A DNA stretch of 22,328 nt. It comes from a virus. The notes under the pieces are model-generated. The model was not told where the DNA came from. It made no database searches and worked only from the letters and a program-made list of their open reading frames with translations. The position numbers and the translations under genes were made by a program. The DNA lies in IMG/VR virus record IMGVR_UViG_3300009436_000123, positions 1-22,328 of that record. One strand, written 5' to 3'. Shown piece by piece: positions 7,461-22,328 of this stretch. Within the stretch, counting starts at the first letter, position 1; every line of letters starts with the position of its first letter.

Positions 7461-7461
7461 A

Positions 7462-7500
7462 ATGAAAAGGGTCCCTCACCCAACCCGAAGGTGAGGGACC
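7462..7500 (-). terminator. Rho-independent terminator after the capsid/decoration genes
   Basis: A perfect 11-bp stem (7490-7500 pairing with 7470-7480) has a 9-base loop. On the minus strand it is followed by CTTTTCATT, a moderate U-tract. It sits 20 bases past the decoration-gene stop and just before the adaptor ATG, comparable to the terminator after the T7 capsid gene. It would give more capsid than tail transcript. Confidence 0.85.
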
Positions 7501-7519
7501 ACTGGTTCATTGTCGAGGA

Positions 7520-7924
7520 CTAAGAGTTCTCGACGTAGAGGATGTAACCTACAAAACTGGTCACAGTAGCAGCCGCAGTTGCGAATACGCTAGTGAGTTC
7601 AGTAGTAGTTGCTTGATAAGCTTCGAAAGCGGCAGCAGCAGTGATACCATCGACGAATACGTCTACAGCGGTATCTACTGGAGTTGCTTTCGCAGTCCAA
7701 CCAATGTCAATCGCGCCAGTGATCGCAGTAACAGCACCACCAATAATGGTGACGTCTTTACCGAACTCAGCTAGCTCAATTTGATCTCCCGTGGCAGCAG
7801 CACCCGAGGAGAATTTTTTAATACGAACTCGCGCACCTGACTCGATAGGAGCCAAAGGCGAGGGATTTTCAGCGCGAACTTGAGTAAGTTCAACACCGAC
7901 TTTGTCGAATGTAATAGCAGCCAT
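7520..7924 (-). CDS. Probable head decoration / minor capsid protein
   Basis: A 134-residue protein is rich in Ala, Thr, Val and Gly, with a beta-like pattern (SGARVRIKKFSSGAAATGDQ, then VTIIGGAVTAITGAIDIGW) and no membrane segment. It lies 24 bases after the major capsid gene and shares a terminator with it, so the two should be made from one transcript at comparable levels. Decoration, cement or head-fibre proteins commonly occupy this slot. I do not recognise a family, so the role is inferred from position and composition. The start context is ACATATATTATG, a good match to the AT-rich start motif of this genome. Confidence 0.6.
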   Translation of the reverse strand: MAAITFDKVGVELTQVRAENPSPLAPIESGARVRIKKFSSGAAATGDQIELAEFGKDVTIIGGAVTAITGAIDIGWTAKATPVDTAVDVFVDGITAAAAFEAYQATTTELTSVFATAAATVTSFVGYILYVENS

Positions 7925-13920: not shown

Positions 13921-14535
13921 TTAAATGGATCCGTCGTTCTCTGTTACATTGGCCGTGGCCTCTGGTGGCGTAAACTCACCGTAGTCGTATACCTCATCTT
14001 CATCTTCTTCCACATCAAACACGTCTACGTCATCAGCCGCCATAGCTGCGGCAACCAAATCCTTCTGGGTAGTCTGGGCGAAATCAACAACGTTAATAGT
14101 CATATTACTCTGCACATCAGCCTGAAGGTCAATTGTTTTCGGCTTAGCTGCAAAGAACCCACTCAACTCCTTAGTCACAGCGATTCTATCCTTAACGGGC
14201 AATACATACTCCCCATCTGCATCCTTCTCCGTCACAAACTCAATTAGTGCCCCTAGTGGATTGAATCCTGCATCCTCGAACATAGCCAAGACCATCTTAC
14301 GCTGCTGGGATGGAGTCGGGGCTTCAGACATCATCTCCAACAACTGCTGCTTTACCAACAACTTCTTCTCGGTAGACGCAGTCTCTCGTTGAATCTCCAT
14401 AAGCTTCTGGGAAGCTTTAGGCAAACGTTTCGTATCTCTCACACGCTTCCGCTCTTTTTGCTTGGTTACTTGCTTGGGTCGAACGCCGTTGGAGGTTTTC
14501 CTCTTATCTGCGAATGGGTCTCGTTTGATGGGCAT
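13921..14535 (-). CDS. Terminase small subunit (probable)
   Basis: A 204-residue protein is first in the structural block, directly before the large terminase. It has a basic N-terminus (KQKERKRVRDTKRLPKASQ), a helical middle with DAGFNPLGALIEFV and VKDRIAVTKELSGFFAAKPK, and a very acidic C-terminus (VDVFDVEEDEDEVYDYG). The middle segment resembles small terminase-type proteins I recall from aquatic podoviruses; such proteins recognise genome ends or concatemer junctions and recruit TerL. No classic helix-turn-helix is obvious, so the call rests mainly on position and overall pattern. Just upstream on the minus strand lies TTGACT with a TAGAAA hexamer 16 bases further on, a possible promoter very close to the ATG. 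Confidence 0.75.
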   Translation of the reverse strand: MPIKRDPFADKRKTSNGVRPKQVTKQKERKRVRDTKRLPKASQKLMEIQRETASTEKKLLVKQQLLEMMSEAPTPSQQRKMVLAMFEDAGFNPLGALIEFVTEKDADGEYVLPVKDRIAVTKELSGFFAAKPKTIDLQADVQSNMTINVVDFAQTTQKDLVAAAMAADDVDVFDVEEDEDEVYDYGEFTPPEATANVTENDGSI

Positions 14536-14547
14536 GGTTCTTTTCTA

Positions 14548-14573
14548 GGGTTCATGGGCTCTTAGTCAAGAAA
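14548..14573 (-). promoter_or_regulatory. Possible promoter of the late (structural) block
   Basis: On the minus strand TTGACT is followed after 16 bases by TAGAAA. The -10 element would be only about 7 bases from the small-terminase ATG, implying an almost leaderless transcript. It is a fair but not perfect sigma70-like match and is the best candidate between the inverted-repeat region and the first late gene. Confidence 0.25.
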
Positions 14574-14618
14574 TTCATGCCTGTTTCTTTCGAACAAGGA
14601 AAGGCCATTCCCTAAAAT

Positions 14619-14849
14619 CTACCAAATCTACCAGAGCTTTTTGGAATCTTGGTAGAACATTAAACAATAACATCTATCAACGACTTACAGAATATTTACC
14701 GATTTACCCTACCAAGCGACTAACTTTACCATAGTAGTTTCTTAAATGAAAATGTCTGGTAAATTGGTAGATATTACATAAGTCGTTGATAACCCTATAT
14801 CTCCACTTGTTCTACCAGAGGGGTGGTAAATGGCGAAATTTGTTGGTAG
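14619..14849. repeat. CTACCA-box cluster within a large inverted repeat (origin or control region)
   Basis: Seven exact CTACCA/TGGTAG hexamers lie at 14619, 14628, 14650, 14709, 14765, 14812 and 14844, with several degenerate TTACC/GGTAA copies between them. They form an imperfect inverted repeat centred near 14733. Its perfect 13-bp core is at 14675-14687 and 14779-14791. Matching outer boxes (14650-14659 with 14808-14817) and inner segments (14691-14708 with 14758-14775) are equally spaced from the centre. The AT-rich interior lies exactly between the divergent minus- and plus-strand gene blocks. Iteron-like boxes in an inverted repeat at a divergence point fit a replication origin, a binding array for a regulator of both blocks, or both. 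Which of these it is cannot be told from sequence. Confidence 0.75.
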
Positions 14850-14879
14850 AAAACGCTGTTTTTGGGGTAAATCGGCCTG

Positions 14880-14907
14880 TTTGGCTAACATAAACCGTTA
14901 GTATAAT
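14880..14907 (+). promoter_or_regulatory. Candidate rightward promoter
   Basis: A consensus TATAAT (14902-14907) has TTTGGC 16 bases upstream (14880-14885). A small inverted repeat, CTAAC with GTTAG, lies in the spacer and could be an operator. It would start a transcript near 14914, running through the C-rich stretch and the structured region towards the plus-strand genes. The -35 match is only moderate. Confidence 0.35.
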
Positions 14908-14934
14908 CGAAAAATCGGAATTTTGGGTTCGTGG

Positions 14935-15390
14935 GATGGGTCCCCCTACTCCCTTCGGACTCCAAAGTTCCCCATGCCCCCCCCTTCGCCCAGATTCCTT
15001 GTTCCAATGGCTCCGTGTTCCCGTTGCCCCAAGGCTCCGTGTTCCCATGGTTCCGTGCTCCCATGTATATATATACCCTGCACCCCAGCACCCCTGTTAC
15101 CATGCACCCATGCACCATGCTACCCTGTTACCATGCACCGTGGATGCGTGGGTTATATCCCACCGTCACCATGACACCATGACCCACACCCATCCGTGTC
15201 GCTCCACCACTGGGCTCACAGCCACCCTGACCCCTGTCATCCATCAACCCACATCACCCATCAGCCTACCCACGCCCCACCAAGGCTCTCTGCTGCCCTT
15301 CAAGCCCCTCTACCATCGTAACCATGGTAACACCCATCCAATGCACCCAAAGCAACCCTTGGCACAACAAGGGCTCTGGACATAGTTACC
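14935..15390 (+). repeat. C-rich, G-poor low-complexity stretch with short direct repeats
   Basis: This stretch has no supported gene. It is dominated by CCC, CCATG and CACC words. Three copies of GGYTCCGTGYTCCC lie at 15009, 15033 and 15049. An exact 17-bp direct repeat (CCCTGTTACCATGCACC) lies at 15092-15108 and 15123-15139. CACCATGA is repeated at 15167 and 15176. Short open frames cross it on both strands, but their products are low-complexity and have no good start signal. It resembles minisatellite-type DNA grown by slippage, or a weakly structured C-rich RNA leader. Confidence 0.7.
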
Positions 15391-15885
15391 CCGCAATCTC
15401 ACAAGTGGTTGCTTGATCGACCGCTCCTCGTCCCTCGTCGGGCACGATGCTTCACTGCCCTTCGTAGTTACTCTCAACGCTTCGCTCCGTTGTATGCCGC
15501 CTTAGGCGTCAAGCTCATTTACCATGGGCTCGGAAAGACCGCTCCGTCAGCGATGCACTGCCCATAGATTGGCTTAGGCCAATCACGCACCCCTGCTGCC
15601 CTAATGCCATCGTCACTGTAGCCCTAGCCGCCACTGTCTCATCAGGTTCGCTTATGCTCACCAGCTAAGCCATTGGACGGGGGCTACCACATTCCCTGAT
15701 GTCATTGGTCATCATGCGCACGGGTCATCACACCCTGCCGAGGGAAGCTGCGCTCCCTATCGCTGCAAGTGAAAACAAGGTATATTCCCGCAAGCGGGCC
15801 CCTTTCCTTGTTGCTGTTGGCCATTACGTGGGCAGACCCACGATGGCTCAACGCCCCTACGGGTTCACTGGCGTCTTCGCCTAGC
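15391..15885 (+). ncRNA. Putative large structured non-coding RNA (~490 nt)
   Basis: This gene-free stretch is tiled by stems that mostly do not conflict. Pairings seen: 15440-15444/15456-15460; 15475-15479/15488-15492; 15498-15501/15505-15508; 15524-15529/15560-15565 enclosing 15531-15534/15543-15546; 15567-15573/15578-15584; a long-range stem 15601-15611/15698-15708 (one mismatch) enclosing 15618-15624/15681-15687, which encloses 15650-15654/15666-15670; 15741-15745/15754-15758; 15774-15780/15806-15812 enclosing 15787-15790/15795-15798; and a long hairpin 15816-15852 with a CAGA loop. G-U pairs at 15602/15707 and 15819/15848 favour the plus strand. It is visibly GC-richer than the neighbouring genes. 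In size and habit it recalls large ornate phage RNAs such as GOLLD and ROOL, though I recognise neither consensus. Exact ends are guesses. Confidence 0.5.
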
Positions 15886-15951
15886 ACCCATGATTATTAT
15901 AGATAGCATCATCATCAAGATAAGATGCGCTTAACCAACATACTAAATATT

Positions 15952-16614
15952 ATGAAAGACTACAACCCAGACCTAGAAGACGCCTTAAACGATGAGTTCA
16001 ACGAGTTGCAATACGAACAGTATGACTCAACAGATGCAGCCTCAACCACTGCTGGCTGCATTACAGCCACCATACAGTATGCCTCATGCGGTTCCAAATA
16101 CACCGAGTCGTTCCAAAAAATCCAGCACCTTCGCGACTTCCTTGATTACAACAGTTGCTGGGCAGTGCTCGTAGGTTTCACCTCAAACGGTGAGACCTAT
16201 GAAACCCTTGCTGACTACCCCGATGAGTCGTCGTCAAAGCCTGAAGCACAAGGCGGGGACACATCGAATCCATGTAATAATAAAGAGGAATTATCCGACA
16301 ATCTTGTCACAACTAAATCAAATCAAACTAAATCAAATACTATGAAACCAATCGCAGCTATCGTAACTAACACAAAGACAGCCATCAGCAACATGACAGG
16401 TGAGGACGTCGTGATCCACGACATCTACACCATTGACGGCGAGTTTGTCCAAGTTTGGTCGGACACACCCGCACCTCTCGCTAAAATAAATGAAGAGACC
16501 TACGTCGTCTGCAAGGTTGACTCCTACAAGAAGCACGGGGAACCAGTCGAGCGCAAGCACTGGCACATCATCCCTACAGCATTCGCCGAAAAGATGATCA
16601 GCTCAGCCGTTTAA
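15952..16614 (+). CDS. Unknown two-part protein, first gene of the rightward block
   Basis: A 220-residue protein of unknown function. The start chosen is the ATG at 15952 because it follows CTAAATATT, the local start motif; an in-frame ATG at 15925 lacks it. Residues 1-95 form an acidic, Thr/Ser-rich part (MKDYNPDLEDALNDEF, later FLDYNSCWAVLVGF). A disordered Ser/Asn/Lys/Thr linker follows (about 96-130). From Met131 (16342) there is a compact domain: MKPIAAIVTNTKTAISNM, then GEDVVIHDIYTIDGEFVQVW and ending HWHIIPTAFAEKM. The internal ATG is directly preceded by a 15-bp-period repeat like those before two other starts, so a separate 90-residue product from 16342 is plausible. This may be two genes fused in frame, or one gene with an internal start. 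Confidence 0.7.
   Translation: MKDYNPDLEDALNDEFNELQYEQYDSTDAASTTAGCITATIQYASCGSKYTESFQKIQHLRDFLDYNSCWAVLVGFTSNGETYETLADYPDESSSKPEAQGGDTSNPCNNKEELSDNLVTTKSNQTKSNTMKPIAAIVTNTKTAISNMTGEDVVIHDIYTIDGEFVQVWSDTPAPLAKINEETYVVCKVDSYKKHGEPVERKHWHIIPTAFAEKMISSAV
16313..16338 (+). repeat. 15-bp-period direct repeat before an internal ATG
   Basis: CTAAATCAAAT occurs at 16313-16323 and again at 16328-16338, ending three bases before the in-frame ATG at 16342. The stretch is A-rich and nearly free of G. The same arrangement appears before the starts at 17697 and 22155. Confidence 0.75.
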
Positions 16615-16672
16615 TCCTTTCCTTCCTTCCAACCCACGTCCTAAGCACGACGTAAAACTGCTTTCCTTTATT

Positions 16673-17509
16673 ATGATTCCAAAACAATCTAAAACATCTC
16701 GCGCAGCTCACCAAAAAGCACTGGAAATCCCCAAGTCTTACGACTTGGACGATCCACTGGAGCAGGCACGACGTGACCTCTGGTCTATCGTGTATAGCGA
16801 AGCCAATGACGTCGCCGATTCTATCCGCAACCGTCACCTAGACGCTCAAGACGTGGTTGATCACTGGTATCTCGACCTAGAGAACAACGCACAGGTATCG
16901 CACGACTTCAAAGCCCACGACAAGGTCACGGGCTTCCAAACCATCTCGCAGGAGCTCAAAGCATTCGAGGAAAATGAAAATCAACTCGCCTACCAGCTCT
17001 GGGAACGTGAGTTCCGTAAGTGGTGGGACGGTGGCAAACAAGGCAAAAAGCCTGTGCTTCCTGCTAGGTCAACCTACCGCGTCTGCCAATTCAAGGATGT
17101 CGAAACCTTCGGCAACGCAGCTTGGTCAGAAGTAGAAGACGAAGTGGAATCCCTCGAACGTCTACGTGAACGTCGCAGCAGCATCCGTCAGGACGCTATG
17201 GACGATCCAGAAAACGCCTACGAGGACGAGCGTGGCAATCGCCGCTTAGCTCAATCCCGCTGTCTCTTCGACCGCTACGATCCACAGAACCCTAAGTTCA
17301 AGTTTCGTGGTCAAAAGGGTGTGCTCGGTGGCATTTATACAACCACAGACCCTGAGCCTACTTACCGTTCAGCCAAAAACCGTGGCTTGCTTGTCAAAGC
17401 TCTCCTTCGTTCCGACAACGTTCTCGATATCCTGCTCGCCAAGGGTATGAATCGTAAGTTCAGCTTCCCTGCAAAAAAGAGGGCTAAAGCGAACGCCAGT
17501 AAAATCTAA
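16673..17509 (+). CDS. Unknown charged protein, 278 residues
   Basis: A hydrophilic protein rich in Arg, Asp, Glu and Trp, with no membrane segment and no motif I can assign. Helical stretches include LEQARRDLWSIVYSEANDVA and a clearly charged helix EDEVESLERLRERRSSIRQD (around 158-177). A repeat of aromatic/basic residues (YQLWEREFRKWWDGG) sits near 112-125. The C-terminus is strongly basic (MNRKFSFPAKKRAKANASK), which suggests nucleic-acid binding but does not prove it. The start follows CTTTATT and lacks a Shine-Dalgarno sequence. A strong terminator begins 7 bases after the stop, so this gene and the previous one probably form one early transcript. Confidence 0.85.
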   Translation: MIPKQSKTSRAAHQKALEIPKSYDLDDPLEQARRDLWSIVYSEANDVADSIRNRHLDAQDVVDHWYLDLENNAQVSHDFKAHDKVTGFQTISQELKAFEENENQLAYQLWEREFRKWWDGGKQGKKPVLPARSTYRVCQFKDVETFGNAAWSEVEDEVESLERLRERRSSIRQDAMDDPENAYEDERGNRRLAQSRCLFDRYDPQNPKFKFRGQKGVLGGIYTTTDPEPTYRSAKNRGLLVKALLRSDNVLDILLAKGMNRKFSFPAKKRAKANASKI

Positions 17510-17515
17510 CACAGT

Positions 17516-17564
17516 GCGGTGGTAGCTCAAGTCTAAGTGCTTGGGTTACCATCGCCCTTTTTTT
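17516..17564 (+). terminator. Strong rho-independent terminator
   Basis: A continuous 16-bp stem (17516-17531 with 17540-17555, including three G-U pairs that only work on this strand) has an 8-base loop and is followed by CC and seven U residues. It ends the transcript of the gene at 16673-17509. Confidence 0.95.
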
Positions 17565-17577
17565 GATACGCAAGAAC

Positions 17578-17645
17578 GCCTCCGCAAGGGACACTGCCTC
17601 CGCAAGGGACACTGCCTCCGCAAGGGACACTGCCTCCGCAGGGGG
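17578..17645 (+). repeat. 18-bp tandem repeat, three and a half copies
   Basis: Three exact copies of GCCTCCGCAAGGGACACT lie at 17578-17595, 17596-17613 and 17614-17631, followed by a partial copy to about 17645. Each unit contains CCGCAAGG, which can form a very short stem with a GCAA (GNRA-type) loop. It lies in the untranslated leader between a terminator and the next gene. Confidence 0.95.
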
Positions 17646-17690
17646 AACAACTACACTTCTAACAACTACACTTCTAACAACTACACACAC
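17646..17690 (+). repeat. 15-bp tandem repeat in a gene leader
   Basis: AACAACTACACTTCT occurs twice exactly (17646-17660, 17661-17675), with a third partial copy (17676-17690) ending six bases before the ATG at 17697. It contains no G and should be unstructured. It directly follows the 18-bp repeat. Confidence 0.95.
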
Positions 17691-17696
17691 AATATA

Positions 17697-17939
17697 ATGA
17701 CTAATCCAAAATACGACGCCGCAATCAAACTAGCTGAACTCCGTGGTTACAAAGAACTACGTGCTGAACAACTCGATCAACTGCTAGAGCTTACAGCAAT
17801 ACCAGAACTCACTGTAACCGAAGCCCTTGATGCCGTGCTCAATGCACCCCAAGAACGCTTTAATCGCGGAGTAAAATTACTCCGCAAACAAGCCTCCATC
17901 GGATTATTTAATATCGCTAAATTACTAGAAAATAAATAA
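17697..17939 (+). CDS. Small helical protein of unknown function (80 residues)
   Basis: The start at 17697 (context CACAATATAATG) is preferred. A frame open from 17541 would begin inside the terminator hairpin and translate the repeats. The product begins MTNPKYDAAIKLAELRGYKE and is almost all helix, with LDQLLELTAIPELTVTEALD and a basic LKLLRKQASIGLFNIAKLLE-type end. The regular Leu spacing suggests a small helical bundle or dimer. It has no recognised family. It begins a run of very small genes separated by 4-10 bases. Confidence 0.75.
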   Translation: MTNPKYDAAIKLAELRGYKELRAEQLDQLLELTAIPELTVTEALDAVLNAPQERFNRGVKLLRKQASIGLFNIAKLLENK

Positions 17940-17947
17940 ACGACATT

Positions 17948-18025
17948 ATGACTACTCTAATTATACTCATTTGTGCCTTCGTTACCATCATCCTTGGAGC
18001 CATGATCTTCGGATCCGACATGTAA
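17948..18025 (+). CDS. 25-residue single-pass membrane peptide
   Basis: A tiny gene encodes MTTLIILICAFVTIILGAMI followed by FGSDM and TAA. Nearly the whole peptide is one hydrophobic helix. The ATG follows CGACATT, eight bases after the preceding stop, and the stop lies four bases before the next AATATTATG start. Good start context, tight spacing and membrane character support it as real. Possible roles include holin-like, superinfection-exclusion or membrane-anchoring peptide, none demonstrated. Confidence 0.65.
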   Translation: MTTLIILICAFVTIILGAMIFGSDM

Positions 18026-18029
18026 TATT

Positions 18030-18275
18030 ATGGACTTACTTATCATCGCATTCATCGCAGCCCTCGGCTATTTAATCATATTATGCAAGCTTTTTAGTCC
18101 TCAATTTGTGGCTAAAACGCAAGTTATGTGGGATGTATTGTTTACAATTGCAGTTCCTATCCTATTTTTAGGCACATTTAGTGGCATGACTACTGCATTT
18201 CTTTCTGGCGTTATATTTAGTGCCATGACATTTGTTTTATCTCTATGTCACACTAAACGACCTAAAAAGACTTAA
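18030..18275 (+). CDS. Small membrane protein, about three TM helices (81 residues)
   Basis: The sequence has three hydrophobic segments: residues 2-22 (DLLIIAFIAALGYLIILCKL), about 34-49 (WDVLFTIAVPILFLGT) and about 54-73 (TTAFLSGVIFSAMTFVLSLC). It ends in a short basic tail, HTKRPKKT, probably cytoplasmic. The start is TAATATTATG. A small multi-pass membrane protein near a lysozyme-like gene could be a holin, but the endolysin is 3.6 kb away, and an exclusion protein fits as well. Confidence 0.8.
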   Translation: MDLLIIAFIAALGYLIILCKLFSPQFVAKTQVMWDVLFTIAVPILFLGTFSGMTTAFLSGVIFSAMTFVLSLCHTKRPKKT

Positions 18276-18280
18276 TTATA

Positions 18281-18448
18281 ATGAATGATTCACTTAAACT
18301 ACTAGATGCTCAACTGTCAGACTCAGAGTTTCGAACTACGATAGCCAACTCACGCTTGCTCAAAGAATGCAAGGAAAAAGGCTTTCCTAAGCTAAAGGCT
18401 TATGGACTTATTCGATACCCTGACGAAAAGCCTGAGAAATCAGAGTAG
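18281..18448 (+). CDS. Small hydrophilic protein (55 residues)
   Basis: The sequence begins MNDSLKLLDAQLSDSEFRTT and continues as a basic/acidic mix ending RYPDEKPEKSE. It looks helical in its first half. The ATG at 18281 follows TTAATTATA, five bases after the preceding stop. I recognise no family; it is accepted on start context and packing. Confidence 0.6.
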   Translation: MNDSLKLLDAQLSDSEFRTTIANSRLLKECKEKGFPKLKAYGLIRYPDEKPEKSE

Positions 18449-18466
18449 TATTAATTTCAGCGGTTT

Positions 18467-18613
18467 ATGATCATACGTAAACTGATAACAAGAGTAATCG
18501 TCTTTGTTTTACCCATTGCTATTGAGGCTGTCTGCCTAGGTTTTAAACGCTGGATGCGTTTACAATCTTACAAGCAGCGCAAGCAACTCTACGACAAAGA
18601 TAAATTACAATAG
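18467..18613 (+). CDS. Small membrane-anchored basic protein (48 residues)
   Basis: The sequence has a short basic start (MIIRKLITR), a hydrophobic helix at about 10-25 (VIVFVLPIAIEAVCLG) and a basic tail (FKRWMRLQSYKQRKQLYDKD). Start context is CGGTTTATG. It is followed within five bases by a terminator hairpin, which supports it as the last gene of this small operon. Confidence 0.6.
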   Translation: MIIRKLITRVIVFVLPIAIEAVCLGFKRWMRLQSYKQRKQLYDKDKLQ

Positions 18614-18617
18614 TGCA

Positions 18618-18655
18618 GTGCTATGTTCCCTTTGGAGCATAGCACCCTAATTTTT
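18618..18655 (+). terminator. Rho-independent terminator
   Basis: A 12-bp stem (18618-18629 with 18634-18645, one G-U pair) has a CTTT loop, followed by CCTAA and five U residues. It ends the small-gene operon 17697-18613. Confidence 0.85.
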
Positions 18656-18738
18656 GGAAGTGGTAACTCAGTATCCCGAACCTCCAATTAAAATATTGGT
18701 TAAAAACTAGCGTGTCATTTGCGTTACCCGATGGGCTT

Positions 18739-18766
18739 TGAGGCTATCCTAGCAGCCTCACTTTCT
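18739..18766 (+). terminator. Hairpin just before the next gene (terminator or leader structure)
   Basis: A perfect 7-bp stem (TGAGGCT at 18739-18745 with AGCCTCA at 18754-18760) is followed by CTTTCTAATT and then the ATG at 18771. The U-tract is weak, and the position in the leader suggests a regulatory or RNA-processing hairpin as readily as a terminator. Confidence 0.45.
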
Positions 18767-18770
18767 AATT

Positions 18771-18974
18771 ATGACCAAAGTAAAAATAACATTCTACAAC
18801 ACTGTTCCACACAATGTGAGTAATTATACAATACACCGTTCAACAACTCCTAATAAAGTATTTATTAAGGAATATAATACAACCAACTACAAACTTGCTA
18901 TGTCTTATGCTATACGATTTGTAAACAAGCAACGCGAAGACTTAGGTAGAAACACAGTATTAGAAATTTTATGA
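18771..18974 (+). CDS. Small protein of unknown function (67 residues)
   Basis: The sequence begins MTKVKITFYNTVPHNVSNYT and includes IHRSTTPNKVFIKEYNTTN, with a final helix YKLAMSYAIRFVNKQREDLG. A beta-strand start and helical end suggest a compact fold. The start is CTAATTATG. Its stop overlaps the following ATG (ATGA). Codon use is more AT-rich than in its neighbours. No family recognised. Confidence 0.7.
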   Translation: MTKVKITFYNTVPHNVSNYTIHRSTTPNKVFIKEYNTTNYKLAMSYAIRFVNKQREDLGRNTVLEIL

Positions 18975-19147
18975 AACCTACAAAGACACCTACTAAAAAA
19001 GCAGCTAAAAAAGCCACCAAGAAAAAGGTATTCAAGGCTCCACCGATCCCTTCTGATATGTTTGAGAAACGTCTCCTCAAAATTGAAGCAGAGCTGAAGA
19101 GGTCAAGACGACTACACTTCAAGCTTGGTAAGATTGACCTTGACTAA
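18971..19147 (+). CDS. Lys/Ala/Thr-rich basic protein with histone H1-like tail (58 residues)
   Basis: The start at 18971 overlaps the previous stop (ATGA). The first 22 residues, MKPTKTPTKKAAKKATKKKV, carry KKAAKK-type repeats like those of histone H1 and bacterial H1-like proteins. They are followed by FKAPPIPSDMFEKRL and a charged helix, LKIEAELKRSRRLHFKLGK. The very high positive charge suggests binding to DNA or RNA, for example as a small nucleoid or anti-restriction protein, but this is inferred from composition only. A hairpin follows the stop. Confidence 0.7.
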   Translation: MKPTKTPTKKAAKKATKKKVFKAPPIPSDMFEKRLLKIEAELKRSRRLHFKLGKIDLD

Positions 19148-19152
19148 ATAAA

Positions 19153-19182
19153 GGATCCCGTGCCAACCACAACACGGGACCC
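19153..19182 (+). terminator. GC-rich hairpin after the basic-protein gene (weak terminator)
   Basis: A 7-bp stem (TCCCGTG at 19156-19162 with CACGGGA at 19173-19179), extendable past a bulged A, has a 10-base loop. It lacks a U-tract (CCCTCATTAAA follows), so termination is uncertain. The remaining ~75 bases up to 19258 hold no other clear feature. Confidence 0.4.
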
Positions 19183-19258
19183 TCATTAAACCAACCATAA
19201 TAACGAATACACAATATATTCAAGTATCAGAAAAGCGGTATATTGATGTGAGTCAACC

Positions 19259-19480
19259 ATGAAAACTACAGAAGCCCATATACTAGCCTCCCGATTTTAT
19301 CTTACAGATGAATTACCCGCAGACTTCGATAAATTAGATGAACAAGAAGTCATGGACTTCATCAAAAACCATAAATGGGAACCCTTTGAATACTGGGAAC
19401 CACACGGTATTTGGGAACTAATTGACGATTTAGCACGAGAATTTCACAACCAAACCAACCATGAAACATCTAGAACCTAA
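19259..19480 (+). CDS. Small acidic protein (73 residues)
   Basis: The sequence begins MKTTEAHILASRFYLTDELP, continues ADFDKLDEQEVMDFIKNHKW and ends IWELIDDLAREFHNQT. It is acidic, rich in Trp and aromatic residues, and predicted helical at both ends. Its last 20 bases overlap the start of the next gene. I do not recognise the family. The start context is GTCAACCATG rather than the AATATTATG form. Confidence 0.7.
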   Translation: MKTTEAHILASRFYLTDELPADFDKLDEQEVMDFIKNHKWEPFEYWEPHGIWELIDDLAREFHNQTNHETSRT

Positions 19481-19763
19481 ATTCAAAGAAATCGCTAGTA
19501 AATACACTAGCCAAGCTGGCGCGGCCAAGGCTCTCTACAAAGTATTAGTAGAATACGCTCAATCCTGCGGCATGGACCCCAGTATGGAGGTCTCAATCCG
19601 CTCACCAAAAGAAAACTTAGCTTTTGGTTTCCACGAATGCTGGTATGTAGGTTTCGAAGCTGGCGACTACCAATGGGCCATTGGAGCCAGTTTCACTCTA
19701 TCCAACATCCACTGGTACACAGAACCCTATTACTCCTTCGACCTTAACTTCACTAAAGCATGA
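19461..19763 (+). CDS. Unknown phage protein (100 residues)
   Basis: The sequence opens with a helix (MKHLEPKFKEIASKYTSQAG, AAKALYKVLVEYAQSCG). It turns beta-rich and aromatic: AFGFHECWYVGFEAGDYQWA, then SNIHWYTEPYYSFDLNF. The pattern suggests an alpha/beta small domain. It begins within the previous gene after the CAACCAACC leader, and its stop overlaps the next ATG (ATGA), so it is part of a coupled run. No known function. Confidence 0.75.
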   Translation: MKHLEPKFKEIASKYTSQAGAAKALYKVLVEYAQSCGMDPSMEVSIRSPKENLAFGFHECWYVGFEAGDYQWAIGASFTLSNIHWYTEPYYSFDLNFTKA

Positions 19764-19957
19764 ACAACAAAGACTTAAAATTAATAGACGACATCAGAGC
19801 TCTTGCTTACAAGAACTATGAAAAAGGCGGAGATATGATTATCGAATGCCTCGAAGACCATGAAATCTTAGAGCACATGAACTCTATCAAAGATGCAAAA
19901 GACTTTATGAAACTACAGTTTGAGCAACGCCGTGAAGTTGAATCCACTATTTTTTAA
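19760..19957 (+). CDS. Small helical acidic protein (65 residues)
   Basis: The sequence begins MNNKDLKLIDDIRALAYKNY, then EKGGDMIIECLEDHEILEHM and a final charged helix FMKLQFEQRREVESTIF. It is almost wholly helical and charged. It is translationally coupled to the preceding gene (ATGA) and ends 3 bases before the next ATG. Function unknown. Confidence 0.75.
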   Translation: MNNKDLKLIDDIRALAYKNYEKGGDMIIECLEDHEILEHMNSIKDAKDFMKLQFEQRREVESTIF

Positions 19958-19960
19958 TGT

Positions 19961-20362
19961 ATGAACACTAACATAAAACGTACCAAACAACCTTTCAACT
20001 ACGAGGAACCTGTACGAGTTTACTGGAACTTCCACCGTAAATGTTACAGTGTCCAACAGAACCGATTGGTTATTGGTCACACTGACTGCATCTCTCTTGT
20101 AGATGTAAAGTTCCATGTGTCCGAGGCTGGACGTCAGCGTGTCCTTAAGGAACGCAAAAAGAATGTCCATGCCTATGCCATAGGTACAATTAACATACCA
20201 GAAGATGTCTACTGGGACGTTAAGATCCAATACAACCCCTACCGACATAAATCCTTTTGTTTATGGGTAGACCCTGCAAGAACTGTATCCTCAGCTCATT
20301 CAGTATTACTCCGAACAAATGATAATGAACCCTACATGCTAGCAAGTAGAGACATATTATGA
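19961..20362 (+). CDS. Conserved phage protein with SEAGRQRVLKERKKNVHA motif
   Basis: A 133-residue protein of a family I recall as widespread among phages and usually left as hypothetical. Its recognisable parts are VRVYWNFHRKCYSVQQNR, a VGH/TD stretch, then VKFHVSEAGRQRVLKERKKN followed by VHAYAIGTI. The C-terminal part contains WDVKIQYNPYRHKSFCLWVD. The conserved strand/basic-helix core suggests nucleic-acid or protein binding, but no activity is established. The stop overlaps the next ATG (ATGA). Confidence 0.8.
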   Translation: MNTNIKRTKQPFNYEEPVRVYWNFHRKCYSVQQNRLVIGHTDCISLVDVKFHVSEAGRQRVLKERKKNVHAYAIGTINIPEDVYWDVKIQYNPYRHKSFCLWVDPARTVSSAHSVLLRTNDNEPYMLASRDIL

Positions 20363-20613
20363 AAGCTTTCCAAACTAAATTCATGCCAGCCACGGACACC
20401 AAAGGCCCCCGTATTAAAGCTACATGCTGGGGTAAAACGGCTACCGTGCCCATCGACTACGGACTAACAGGTTACCAAAACCACTTTGAATCAGTCAAAG
20501 AGCTAATTAAAAAGCATAACCTAGAAATAGACATTTCAACAATGGTCTACGGCAGCCACGACTTCAACAACACCTACACATTCTGTTTCCCCCAATCAAC
20601 TATAAACCTATGA
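20359..20613 (+). CDS. Conserved small phage protein (TKFMPATDTKGPRIKA type)
   Basis: An 84-residue protein begins MKAFQTKFMPATDTKGPRIK, a strongly conserved opening in a small phage family I recall, often located near the SEAGRQRVL-type gene, as here. The middle is a helix (HFESVKELIKKHNLEIDIS) and the end is beta/aromatic (VYGSHDFNNTYTFCFPQ). Coupled at both ends by ATGA overlaps. Function unknown. Confidence 0.8.
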   Translation: MKAFQTKFMPATDTKGPRIKATCWGKTATVPIDYGLTGYQNHFESVKELIKKHNLEIDISTMVYGSHDFNNTYTFCFPQSTINL

Positions 20614-20924
20614 TCGAAGCCCACATCAACCAAATGGTAAACGACGACAATCAGCTAGAAGCTGGTGACGGTCTTTTCATCGACCTCAAATATTACGGCG
20701 ACCAAGCCGTGGCAACCAGTGCAATCGAGTATCAAGTAGACGAAGACGGCGAAGAGTCGGAAGAGATCCTATCTGTACACGATGCAATGCAAGACTGGAT
20801 ACGACCAATTAGAAATGGTTACGGCGTTGACGGAGTTCTAGCTGTCCTTTGTCCAGATAAAGTATGGCGTAAAATCGTCTGGTTCAACGAAGACGGACAC
20901 GGTCAAGCATTTACACAAAACTAA
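20610..20924 (+). CDS. Acidic protein of unknown function (104 residues)
   Basis: A strongly acidic protein: EAGDGLFIDLKYYGDQAVAT, then EYQVDEDGEESEEILSVHDA and WIRPIRNGYGVDGVLAVLC, ending VWRKIVWFNEDGHGQAF. It is a probable small alpha/beta domain with a negatively charged central loop. The net charge would suit a DNA mimic, but no family is recognised. The start overlaps the preceding stop (ATGA). Confidence 0.75.
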   Translation: MIEAHINQMVNDDNQLEAGDGLFIDLKYYGDQAVATSAIEYQVDEDGEESEEILSVHDAMQDWIRPIRNGYGVDGVLAVLCPDKVWRKIVWFNEDGHGQAFTQN

Positions 20925-20928
20925 TATT

Positions 20929-21279
20929 ATGGGAAGATACTACAGCGGAGACATAGATGGCAAATTCTGGTTTGCCTTACAACAATCAAACGCAGCTGAT
21001 CGCTTTGGAAGTACAGGAGAGGCAACTCATTTGTCTTATTACTTTCATAAAGATCAACTGGATTATATTAAAAATGAACTTTCAGAAATTACTAAAAACA
21101 TTAATGTAACTAAACTCAATGAGTTCTTTGATCGTCAAAAAGGCTGGAGCGAAGATACAATAAAAGCTGCTGGCATCACCAGAAACGACTTAATAGAGTA
21201 CGCAGATTACAAACTAGGTATTCAAATTCGCGACATGCTCGAATCAAACGGTGAATGCTGTTTCGAAGCAGAACTATAA
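20929..21279 (+). CDS. Conserved phage protein (MGRYYxGDIxGKFWF family)
   Basis: A 116-residue protein begins MGRYYSGDIDGKFWFALQQS, then NAADRFGSTGEATHLSYYF, a highly recognisable opening of small proteins in many phage genomes that remain without function. The rest is helical (DQLDYIKNELSEITKNINVT, later LIEYADYKLGIQIRDMLE). The start is TAATATTATG, and the gene ends with the same motif leading into the next gene. Confidence 0.8.
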   Translation: MGRYYSGDIDGKFWFALQQSNAADRFGSTGEATHLSYYFHKDQLDYIKNELSEITKNINVTKLNEFFDRQKGWSEDTIKAAGITRNDLIEYADYKLGIQIRDMLESNGECCFEAEL

Positions 21280-21283
21280 TATT

Positions 21284-21454
21284 ATGAAAAACCCAATCCA
21301 AAACATAGGCTTATTCTACACACCAACAAGTATGGAAGATCTGCAAGACAAACTTGCACTTCATTACGGCTCGGAAGGTGTCGTTGCTCAAACAGCAGCG
21401 TGGATGGCTTGGAACCTAGCCTCCAAGATAATCGAAGAACAACTACAAGATTAA
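21284..21454 (+). CDS. Small helical protein (56 residues)
   Basis: The start at 21284 follows TATAATATT. An in-frame ATG at 21251 lies inside the previous gene without that motif, so it is not preferred. The sequence is MKNPIQNIGLFYTPTSMEDL, then QDKLALHYGSEGVVAQTAAW and a final helix MAWNLASKIIEEQLQD. No family recognised. Confidence 0.7.
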   Translation: MKNPIQNIGLFYTPTSMEDLQDKLALHYGSEGVVAQTAAWMAWNLASKIIEEQLQD

Positions 21455-21456
21455 CT

Positions 21457-21666
21457 ATGGAAAAAACAATAGAAAAAAACGCACACGGTGAGTTCAATGT
21501 GTATCAATTTGATACATACCCCGATGACAGCGTTCTAGCAGGTCAAACAAGGAAGCAATTTCTAGATATGTATGACACCGCAGAACTTGCAAAAAAAGAT
21601 TACCCCGATGCCGTAGAAGGCTATCGTGACGCACATAACCACTTCGATCACTTACCAGACTACTAA
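21457..21666 (+). CDS. Small phage protein ending in FDHLPD motif (69 residues)
   Basis: The start at 21457 lies three bases after the preceding stop. The sequence begins MEKTIEKNAHGEFNVYQFDT, with a helix AELAKKDYPDAVEGYRDAHN and the ending HFDHLPDY. A short helix followed by a YPDA...HFDHLPD-type end is something I recall from small phage proteins; function unknown. A longer frame open from 21400 is within the preceding gene and not preferred. Confidence 0.7.
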   Translation: MEKTIEKNAHGEFNVYQFDTYPDDSVLAGQTRKQFLDMYDTAELAKKDYPDAVEGYRDAHNHFDHLPDY

Positions 21667-21667
21667 T

Positions 21668-22030
21668 ATGACTTACTTATCTCTTATAATGGCTCTCATT
21701 ACAATTGAAAGCCAAGGCAACGACTTTGCAAAAGGCGACCGAGGAAAAGCTCTAGGCTGTCTACAGCTGCATGAAGCATACGTTTATGACGCAGCAGAAC
21801 ATGCTGGCGATTACTGGGTACACGAAGACGCCTATCAGCGTGACGTAGCTGTTAAAATCTTCATGGCATACATGGATAGATACGCAACCGTGGAACGCTT
21901 AGGACGTCATCCCACAATGGAAGACATTGCTCGCATACACAACGGTGGTCCAAATGGCTACAAAAAAGAATCAACCAAAGCATACTGGGCTAAGGTCAAA
22001 AAGGAACTAGATTCCTACGACATACTATAA
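21668..22030 (+). CDS. Lysozyme-like / SLT lytic transglycosylase (probable endolysin)
   Basis: A 120-residue protein with a transglycosylase/lysozyme fold pattern. The probable catalytic Glu14 is in ITIESQGNDFAKGD, followed by GKALGCLQLHEAYVYDA, matching the ES.G...A.G..GA.G..Q[IL] signature, and IARIHNGGPNGYKKESTKAY near the end, the usual N-GGP segment. Such short one-domain enzymes occur in phages and in PVC-group bacteria. The length is typical of a catalytic domain without a binding domain. The N-terminus is mildly hydrophobic (MTYLSLIMALITI), but it includes the catalytic helix, so it is not a signal peptide. It would cleave peptidoglycan at lysis. The start at 21668 follows CTACTAAT; earlier in-frame ATGs lie in the previous gene. 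Confidence 0.82.
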   Translation: MTYLSLIMALITIESQGNDFAKGDRGKALGCLQLHEAYVYDAAEHAGDYWVHEDAYQRDVAVKIFMAYMDRYATVERLGRHPTMEDIARIHNGGPNGYKKESTKAYWAKVKKELDSYDIL

Positions 22031-22049
22031 AAACCTTCAGTAGAAACCG

Positions 22050-22119
22050 TGATGTAGGGGTACATCATAACTACAAACCCCTTCGCCCTTCACTATCATT
22101 AGACGTGGAGTGGCGAAGG
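22050..22119 (+). promoter_or_regulatory. Two hairpins between the endolysin gene and the last gene
   Basis: The first hairpin has TGATGTA (22050-22056) pairing with TACATCA (22061-22067) round a GGGG loop. The second has an 8-bp stem (22080-22087 with 22112-22119), a bulged U and a further 6-bp stem (22088-22093 with 22105-22110). Neither is followed by a U-run, so they may be leader, processing or stability structures rather than terminators. Confidence 0.55.
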
Positions 22120-22126
22120 ACATTCT

Positions 22127-22153
22127 CAAGTCAAATAAAACCAAGTCAAATAA
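22127..22153 (+). repeat. 15-bp-period direct repeat before the last start codon
   Basis: CAAGTCAAATAA occurs at 22127-22138 and 22142-22153, one base before the ATG at 22155. The arrangement is the same as at 16313-16338 and 17646-17690. Confidence 0.85.
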
Positions 22154-22154
22154 T

Positions 22155-22328
22155 ATGAAGCTTACACTACAAATAGATACCACTCAAATCACAATCGAGA
22201 CAGATTACACACCAGCACTAACGGAGACCGTCGAACATCTGTACAGGCTCTGTGTCTGTTCTGGGTTCAGCCCTACAGGAGCCGCAGAAGCCTTCGTTGA
22301 ACGAGGTAATGATATGCTTGAGGCGGAA
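22155..22328 (+). CDS. Small protein, cut by the window end
   Basis: The frame stays open from the ATG at 22155 to the last base, giving 58 residues without a stop. The sequence begins MKLTLQIDTTQITIETDYTP, a beta-type start, followed by a helix (ETVEHLYRLCVCSGFSPTGA) and EAFVERGNDMLEAE. No family is recognised from this fragment. It begins after CAAATAATATG and the 15-bp-period repeat. Confidence 0.75.
   Translation, partial: MKLTLQIDTTQITIETDYTPALTETVEHLYRLCVCSGFSPTGAAEAFVERGNDMLEAE

Follow-up and report, generated by a model that had tools for sequence, protein, structure and literature searches.

A/C-rich tandem arrays directly before three start codons of an uncultured virus of bacteria as candidate open leaders for translation initiation

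Introduction

The leader of T7 gene 10 has a hairpin at its 5' end, followed by an unstructured A-rich stretch, and carries a strong Shine-Dalgarno sequence. The omega leader of tobacco mosaic virus is nearly G-free and CAA-rich, contains direct repeats and is reported to replace the Shine-Dalgarno sequence in bacteria. The leaders described here share the hairpin and the A-rich open stretch with T7 gene 10, but they have tandem arrays, which the T7 leader does not, and lack its strong Shine-Dalgarno sequence. They resemble omega, which comes from a plant RNA virus, without any claim of homology.

Composition of the leader is also important for initiation in bacterial genes. In Salmonella, ACA triplets 5' of start codons enhance initiation, in one gene by more than 100-fold; the authors put protein S1 forward as a candidate and cite an ACAA repeat with which initiation needs no Shine-Dalgarno sequence (PMC3879156). 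In E. coli and Flavobacterium, initiation is promoted by leaders rich in A (PMC7043885, PMC6847099). The leaders studied here are like the C/A-rich enhancers of Salmonella yifK, dppA and gltI in having A/C-rich elements 5' of the start with no strict position. In contrast, those enhancers act together with a Shine-Dalgarno sequence and are not tandem arrays, and raised initiation was measured for them, whereas the present leaders are known from sequence (PMC3879156). The Kozak-like A-rich starts of Flavobacterium and E. coli are similar in their lack of Shine-Dalgarno pairing and their A-rich open leaders, but what determines them is A at single positions together with low structure, not repeats (PMC6847099, PMC7043885). 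In the partial literature that was covered, no report describing tandem arrays in phage leaders was seen.

Here, three arrays with a period of 15 bp were analysed. We propose that they may be open 5' leaders for Shine-Dalgarno-independent initiation that were lengthened by tandem duplication, a reading to which we give an even chance of being right.

Results

The virus record and its gene arrangement

The window, that is, the whole stretch of DNA analysed, is a record of 22,328 bases from an uncultured virus of bacteria and is probably a fragment of a virus genome. Its leftward genes include one for a portal (head-to-tail connector) protein, which has 31% identity to its best match among annotated phages, and small rightward genes, mostly without assignable function, follow from about 15,925 onward. 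No related prophage was found in bacterial and archaeal genomes, which were scanned once with the site 1 protein and once with the portal alignment, and no Rfam match was obtained for window positions 14500-22328 at E up to 1. Between the leftward and the rightward genes, short repeats containing CATG are dense in the window and in its relatives (7 to 10 CATG against about 1 to 2.5 expected), and this stretch may act as an origin or in control. Terminator-like or strong hairpins were also seen in the window at 18739-18770 and 7461-7510, about 8 to 10 nt 5' of the ATGs of the genes at 18771 (+) and 7460 (-). The features discussed below are listed in Table 1.

Table 1. Features of the three sites and of the region before the rightward genes (window positions unless a relative is named).
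Feature	Position	Strand	Details
CATG-rich stretches	14800-15400; L001 1600-2300; L006 6500-7110; L103 1-300; L015 1-300
Block 5' of array 1 with GACAATCTTGTC inverted repeat	16285-16313	+	identical in L001, partly kept in L103; putative regulatory role
Site 1 array, A-rich, period 15	16310-16338	+	ends 3 nt before ATG 16342
Gene after site 1, 90 aa, no assigned function	16342-16614	+	protein conserved from ATG: L001 91%, L103 68%
Terminator-like hairpin with T run, 5' of site 2	17516-17555	+	predicted by pattern and fold
GC-rich 18-bp tandem array, 3.7 copies, 97% alike, predicted hairpins	17578-17644	+	directly 5' of array 2
Site 2 leader	17641-17696	+	G run followed by 51 G-free nt
Site 2 array, period 15, 2.7 exact copies	17646-17686	+	ends 10 nt before ATG 17697
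Gene after site 2, 80 aa, no assigned function	17697-17939	+	homologues in L006, L026, L103, L022
Cassette (hairpins, leader, gene) common to L134, 96% identity	22031-22328	+	runs past window end
Predicted hairpin 5' of array 3	22080-22119	+	fold prediction
Site 3 array, period 15	22127-22153	+	ends 1 nt before ATG 22155
Gene after site 3, at least 58 aa, no assigned function	22155-22328	+	runs off window

Period-15 arrays are placed at start codons

Mechanical gene calling failed to find the site 1 and site 3 genes, and 34 starts of the window were chosen by hand, with the ATG at 15925 excluded. For each 60-nt leader, the best self-match at periods of 6-25 was compared with 1000 dinucleotide shuffles. 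The leaders of sites 1, 2 and 3 reached 13, 26 and 12 matching bases (shuffle P of 0.001, 0.000 and 0.002, respectively), and none of the 31 remaining hand-set starts reached 12. The original prediction of period-15 repeats before three ATGs was thus confirmed by the shuffles (P of about 0.002 or less). The arrays had also been said to end one to six bases before the ATG, which holds for sites 1 (3 nt) and 3 (1 nt) but not for site 2, where the end of the exact array lies 10 nt away. Among 984 leaders of other viral loci, which were retrieved by A/C-rich patterns and hence are a non-random background, seven had an array at that threshold, one of them with period 15; identical arrays were counted once, and the relatives L044 and L129 were omitted.

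A gapless scan of nine family sequences (about 150 kb, with slight overlap) detected period-15 arrays only at the three window sites and once each in L001 and L103. All five adjoin or contain a start codon, which counts for the leader model. The scan is blind to arrays with indels, and a period-15 row with an indel, found by Tandem Repeats Finder at L015 9203-9231, is outside the count of five. These results indicate that the arrays are real and that their placement at starts is beyond chance. The main rival explanation is neutral slippage, in which G-poor leaders free of coding constraint gain and keep short duplications without function. Period-15 arrays occur at starts but are missing from the remaining non-coding sequence scanned, which argues against slippage. 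We regard slippage as a possible but doubtful explanation when the observations at sites 1 and 2 below are also considered.

The three leaders are predicted to be open, and two of them are alike

The Shine-Dalgarno sequence is absent from the last 20 nt at all three sites, as had been claimed. Its absence is not a special trait of these sites, since 30 of the 34 starts have no GGAG, GAGG, AGGA or AAGG in the last 20 nt; this count favours the leader model. The predicted energies from -30 to +30 were -0.4, 0.0 and 0.0 kcal/mol for sites 1, 2 and 3, and when every set of three was drawn from the 34 starts, 0.08% had equally low predicted structure, so the claim of unstructured leaders was upheld by predicted fold. 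This low structure and the shuffle results both favour the leader model. The last 40 nt contain 1, 0 and 5 G, respectively, and the median of the starts is 6. G was as scarce as at the three sites together in 0.9% of triples. Site 3 alone is ordinary in this respect, which counts against the leader model; the description of the leaders as nearly without G is right for sites 1 and 2 but not for site 3. Because a G-poor repeated sequence is open by composition, the openness and the repeat are not independent facts.

Leaders 1 and 3 have 22 of 30 identical bases beside the ATG, which is the best of 561 leader pairs (the next best has 18) and was attained in 1 of 100,000 shuffles. Both can be read as A-rich units of five bases that keep a common register relative to the ATG. 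The site 2 array agrees with those of sites 1 and 3 at 12 and 14 of 30 bases. There are thus two kinds of array rather than three, and the statement that the sequences are different and unrelated did not survive for sites 1 and 3.

Site 1 keeps the period while the unit changes

The gene after site 1 is present in L001 (84% DNA identity at site 1), where the array is longer by exactly 15 bp, which is one unit. L103 also has a period-15 array at site 1, with 2.2 exact copies of a different unit. This unit agrees with the window unit at 12 of 15 positions, and the three changes are identical in both copies, a pattern that may reflect concerted change or else duplication that recurred at a single place. 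The period was therefore kept in both relatives with the gene, although the unit itself changes. Slippage is favoured by the difference in unit copy number between close relatives and by the inner period of 5 in the units of sites 1 and 3; the persistence of period 15 in L103 despite the changed unit speaks against it. In a search of viral contigs for a 16-mer of site 1, 76 loci were found, of which L044 is the L001 contig and the other 75 are, by eye, unlike the site beyond the 16-mer.

The arrays could instead be coding repeats, with the true starts upstream and N-terminal repeats of five residues encoded by the arrays. Each of the three window arrays can be read through in the frame of its gene from an upstream ORF start (ATG 15925, TTG 17541 and GTG 22110). 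In both the window and L001 the upstream frame continues through array 1 into the gene, and the 15-bp difference of L001 preserves the frame. However, L103 has an in-frame stop directly 5' of array 1, and the conservation of the protein with L103 begins at the site 1 ATG. Codon differences in the upstream frame were 3 synonymous and 8 nonsynonymous in 30 codons, against 18 and 7 in 89 codons of the gene. Coding repeats are accordingly considered very improbable, and a fusion protein at site 1 was rejected because of the L103 stop. In L103, the start codon is inside the unit, which results in two in-frame ATGs 15 nt apart. The in-frame stop, together with the two unit copies that changed alike, suggests that the array is a leader in L103, in favour of the leader model, and array 1 is taken as leader rather than coding sequence from these comparisons.

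A different function at the DNA level was also considered, in which the repeats are promoter or operator elements, bound by RNA polymerase or a regulator, whose place near the ATG follows from the shortness of the leaders. The conserved inverted repeat directly 5' of array 1 fits such an element. In contrast, none of the ten sigma-70-like sites listed (two hexamers with 16-18 nt spacing, which covers the sigma-70 type only) lies on the + strand over an array. With the evidence from sites 2 and 3 given below, we consider this explanation improbable.

Site 2 keeps composition and architecture but not the repeat

The G run and the nearly G-free A/C-rich leader of site 2 were retained in all four relatives examined (L006, L022, L026 and L103), which supports the leader model. 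In L022, L026 and L103, the G run is followed by a single copy of the unit, and the ATG is 18-19 nt past the G run. In these three relatives the leader precedes genes other than the homologue of 17697, which lies further downstream. In L006 the leader does precede the homologue, and the G run is followed by 39 A/C-rich nt with one G and no 15-bp period. The 15-bp repeat was found at site 2 in none of the four relatives, which counts against the leader model. Conservation in relatives was thus seen for the period at site 1 (2 of 2) but not for the repeat at site 2 (0 of 4). That the site 2 relatives manage without the repeat favours slippage, whereas the continued exclusion of G at this site argues against it.

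ACA triplets are enriched in the site 2 leader of the window (9 against a shuffle mean of 3.5, P 0.0016). The leaders of the four relatives showed no enrichment over shuffles (P 0.10 to 0.49), which also counts against the leader model. The search for the site 2 motif with an ATG gave 26 loci, of which three are window relatives (L025, L026 and L129); the remaining 23 appear to be chance matches. The 18-bp array upstream is reduced to two partial copies in L022 and was not seen in L026 and L103, and an origin with iterons at site 2 was rejected for this reason. A promoter would be expected near the terminator-like hairpin that precedes site 2, but the unlikeness of this array to those of sites 1 and 3 counts against promoter or operator DNA.

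Site 3 is part of a stretch shared with another phage type

Window positions 22031-22328 (298 bp) correspond to L134 2782-3076 at 96% identity. One array base differs, and the two copies are too similar to test selection on the array. The shared stretch starts directly after the stop of the upstream gene in both sequences, and this start is possibly an attachment site or cassette boundary. The 5' neighbours are different, being integrase-like in L134 (with matches to annotated integrases) and lysozyme-like (Destabilase) in the window. Among the L134 genes is one for a T7-type single-subunit RNA polymerase, and AP013544 and OR420755 match the L134 polymerase, integrase, single-strand-binding protein and endonuclease. 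Because a stretch of such identity is shared with a different phage type, the hairpins, the leader and the gene of site 3 seem to travel as a unit between phage groups. The site 3 protein was not found in ten related records, although such an empty result shows little.

None of the four L134 proteins had a match in the family stretches examined. For the polymerase, this speaks against promoter or operator DNA, and a promoter for an L134-like phage RNA polymerase was rejected because the examined stretches of G001-G003 contain no polymerase match. L134 also has a CA-rich, nearly G-free repeat at 7683-7712, before an in-frame ATG inside a primase-like gene; T7 gene 4 has its internal start at the corresponding place.

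Leader arrays with other periods

Arrays in other leaders of the window family and related phages have periods of 8 to 18, 20 and 22. In L132, an A-rich array with periods of 18, 9 and 8 stops 6 nt short of the ATG of a 261-aa ORF. MW202510 (L135), which among annotated phages has the closest portal, carries a 22-bp unit at 2629-2678 that is repeated up to the ATG of the annotated gene at 2679, and in L134 an A/C-rich 20-bp repeat stops 22 nt short of a start. In the control phages L136-L138, one array, 31 nt from the start, was found among 153 mechanically called starts. Long tandem repeats that look coding were also seen at L006 1852-2587 (periods of 63 and 380 bp) and L134 3531-3705 (12 and 36 bp).

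Period 15 is therefore common in the phage family of the window and not general, and only at site 1 is there support for a special role of this length. The idea that one 15-nt spacing was selected independently at three unrelated sites is not supported: sites 1 and 3 share a leader, the relatives of site 2 carry a single copy of the unit or a different leader, and other periods occur elsewhere.

Discussion

An open leader kept by composition is a better reading of these observations than one spacing selected at unrelated sites. The part of the original prediction that concerned an open A/C-rich leader at a start without Shine-Dalgarno sequence is backed as far as sequence goes, with the composition and architecture of site 2 kept in four of four relatives. 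In the proposed leader, a hairpin, which is strong at sites 2 and 3 and only weak at site 1, would come first, followed by an A/C-rich stretch that does not pair and then by the ATG. The open stretch would be the landing place for the 30S subunit, recruited by openness and A/C content, perhaps through protein S1. Short tandem duplications would extend the leader, and they may be tolerated or favoured because composition, and not the exact sequence, matters. Such a leader would raise translation, and its copy number would change the output. Other first genes, such as that at 18771, have no array, which counts against this model.

A wider possibility is that these phages, most of whose genes have no Shine-Dalgarno sequence, tune translation by gain and loss of short A/C-rich leader units, that hairpin, expandable leader and gene form a cassette that moves between groups sharing a host, and that steps of 15 nt are preferred at site 1 because they fit both the five-base repeat and the reading frame. 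We regard this as a speculative and rather unlikely extension.

At site 1, one conserved gene is preceded by alleles with two units, with three units and with two units of altered sequence, which could serve directly as a test series. Should the leaders act in the proposed way, the number of units would be a simple expression dial, and these leaders would be natural cases of initiation by openness and composition rather than by pairing with 16S rRNA.
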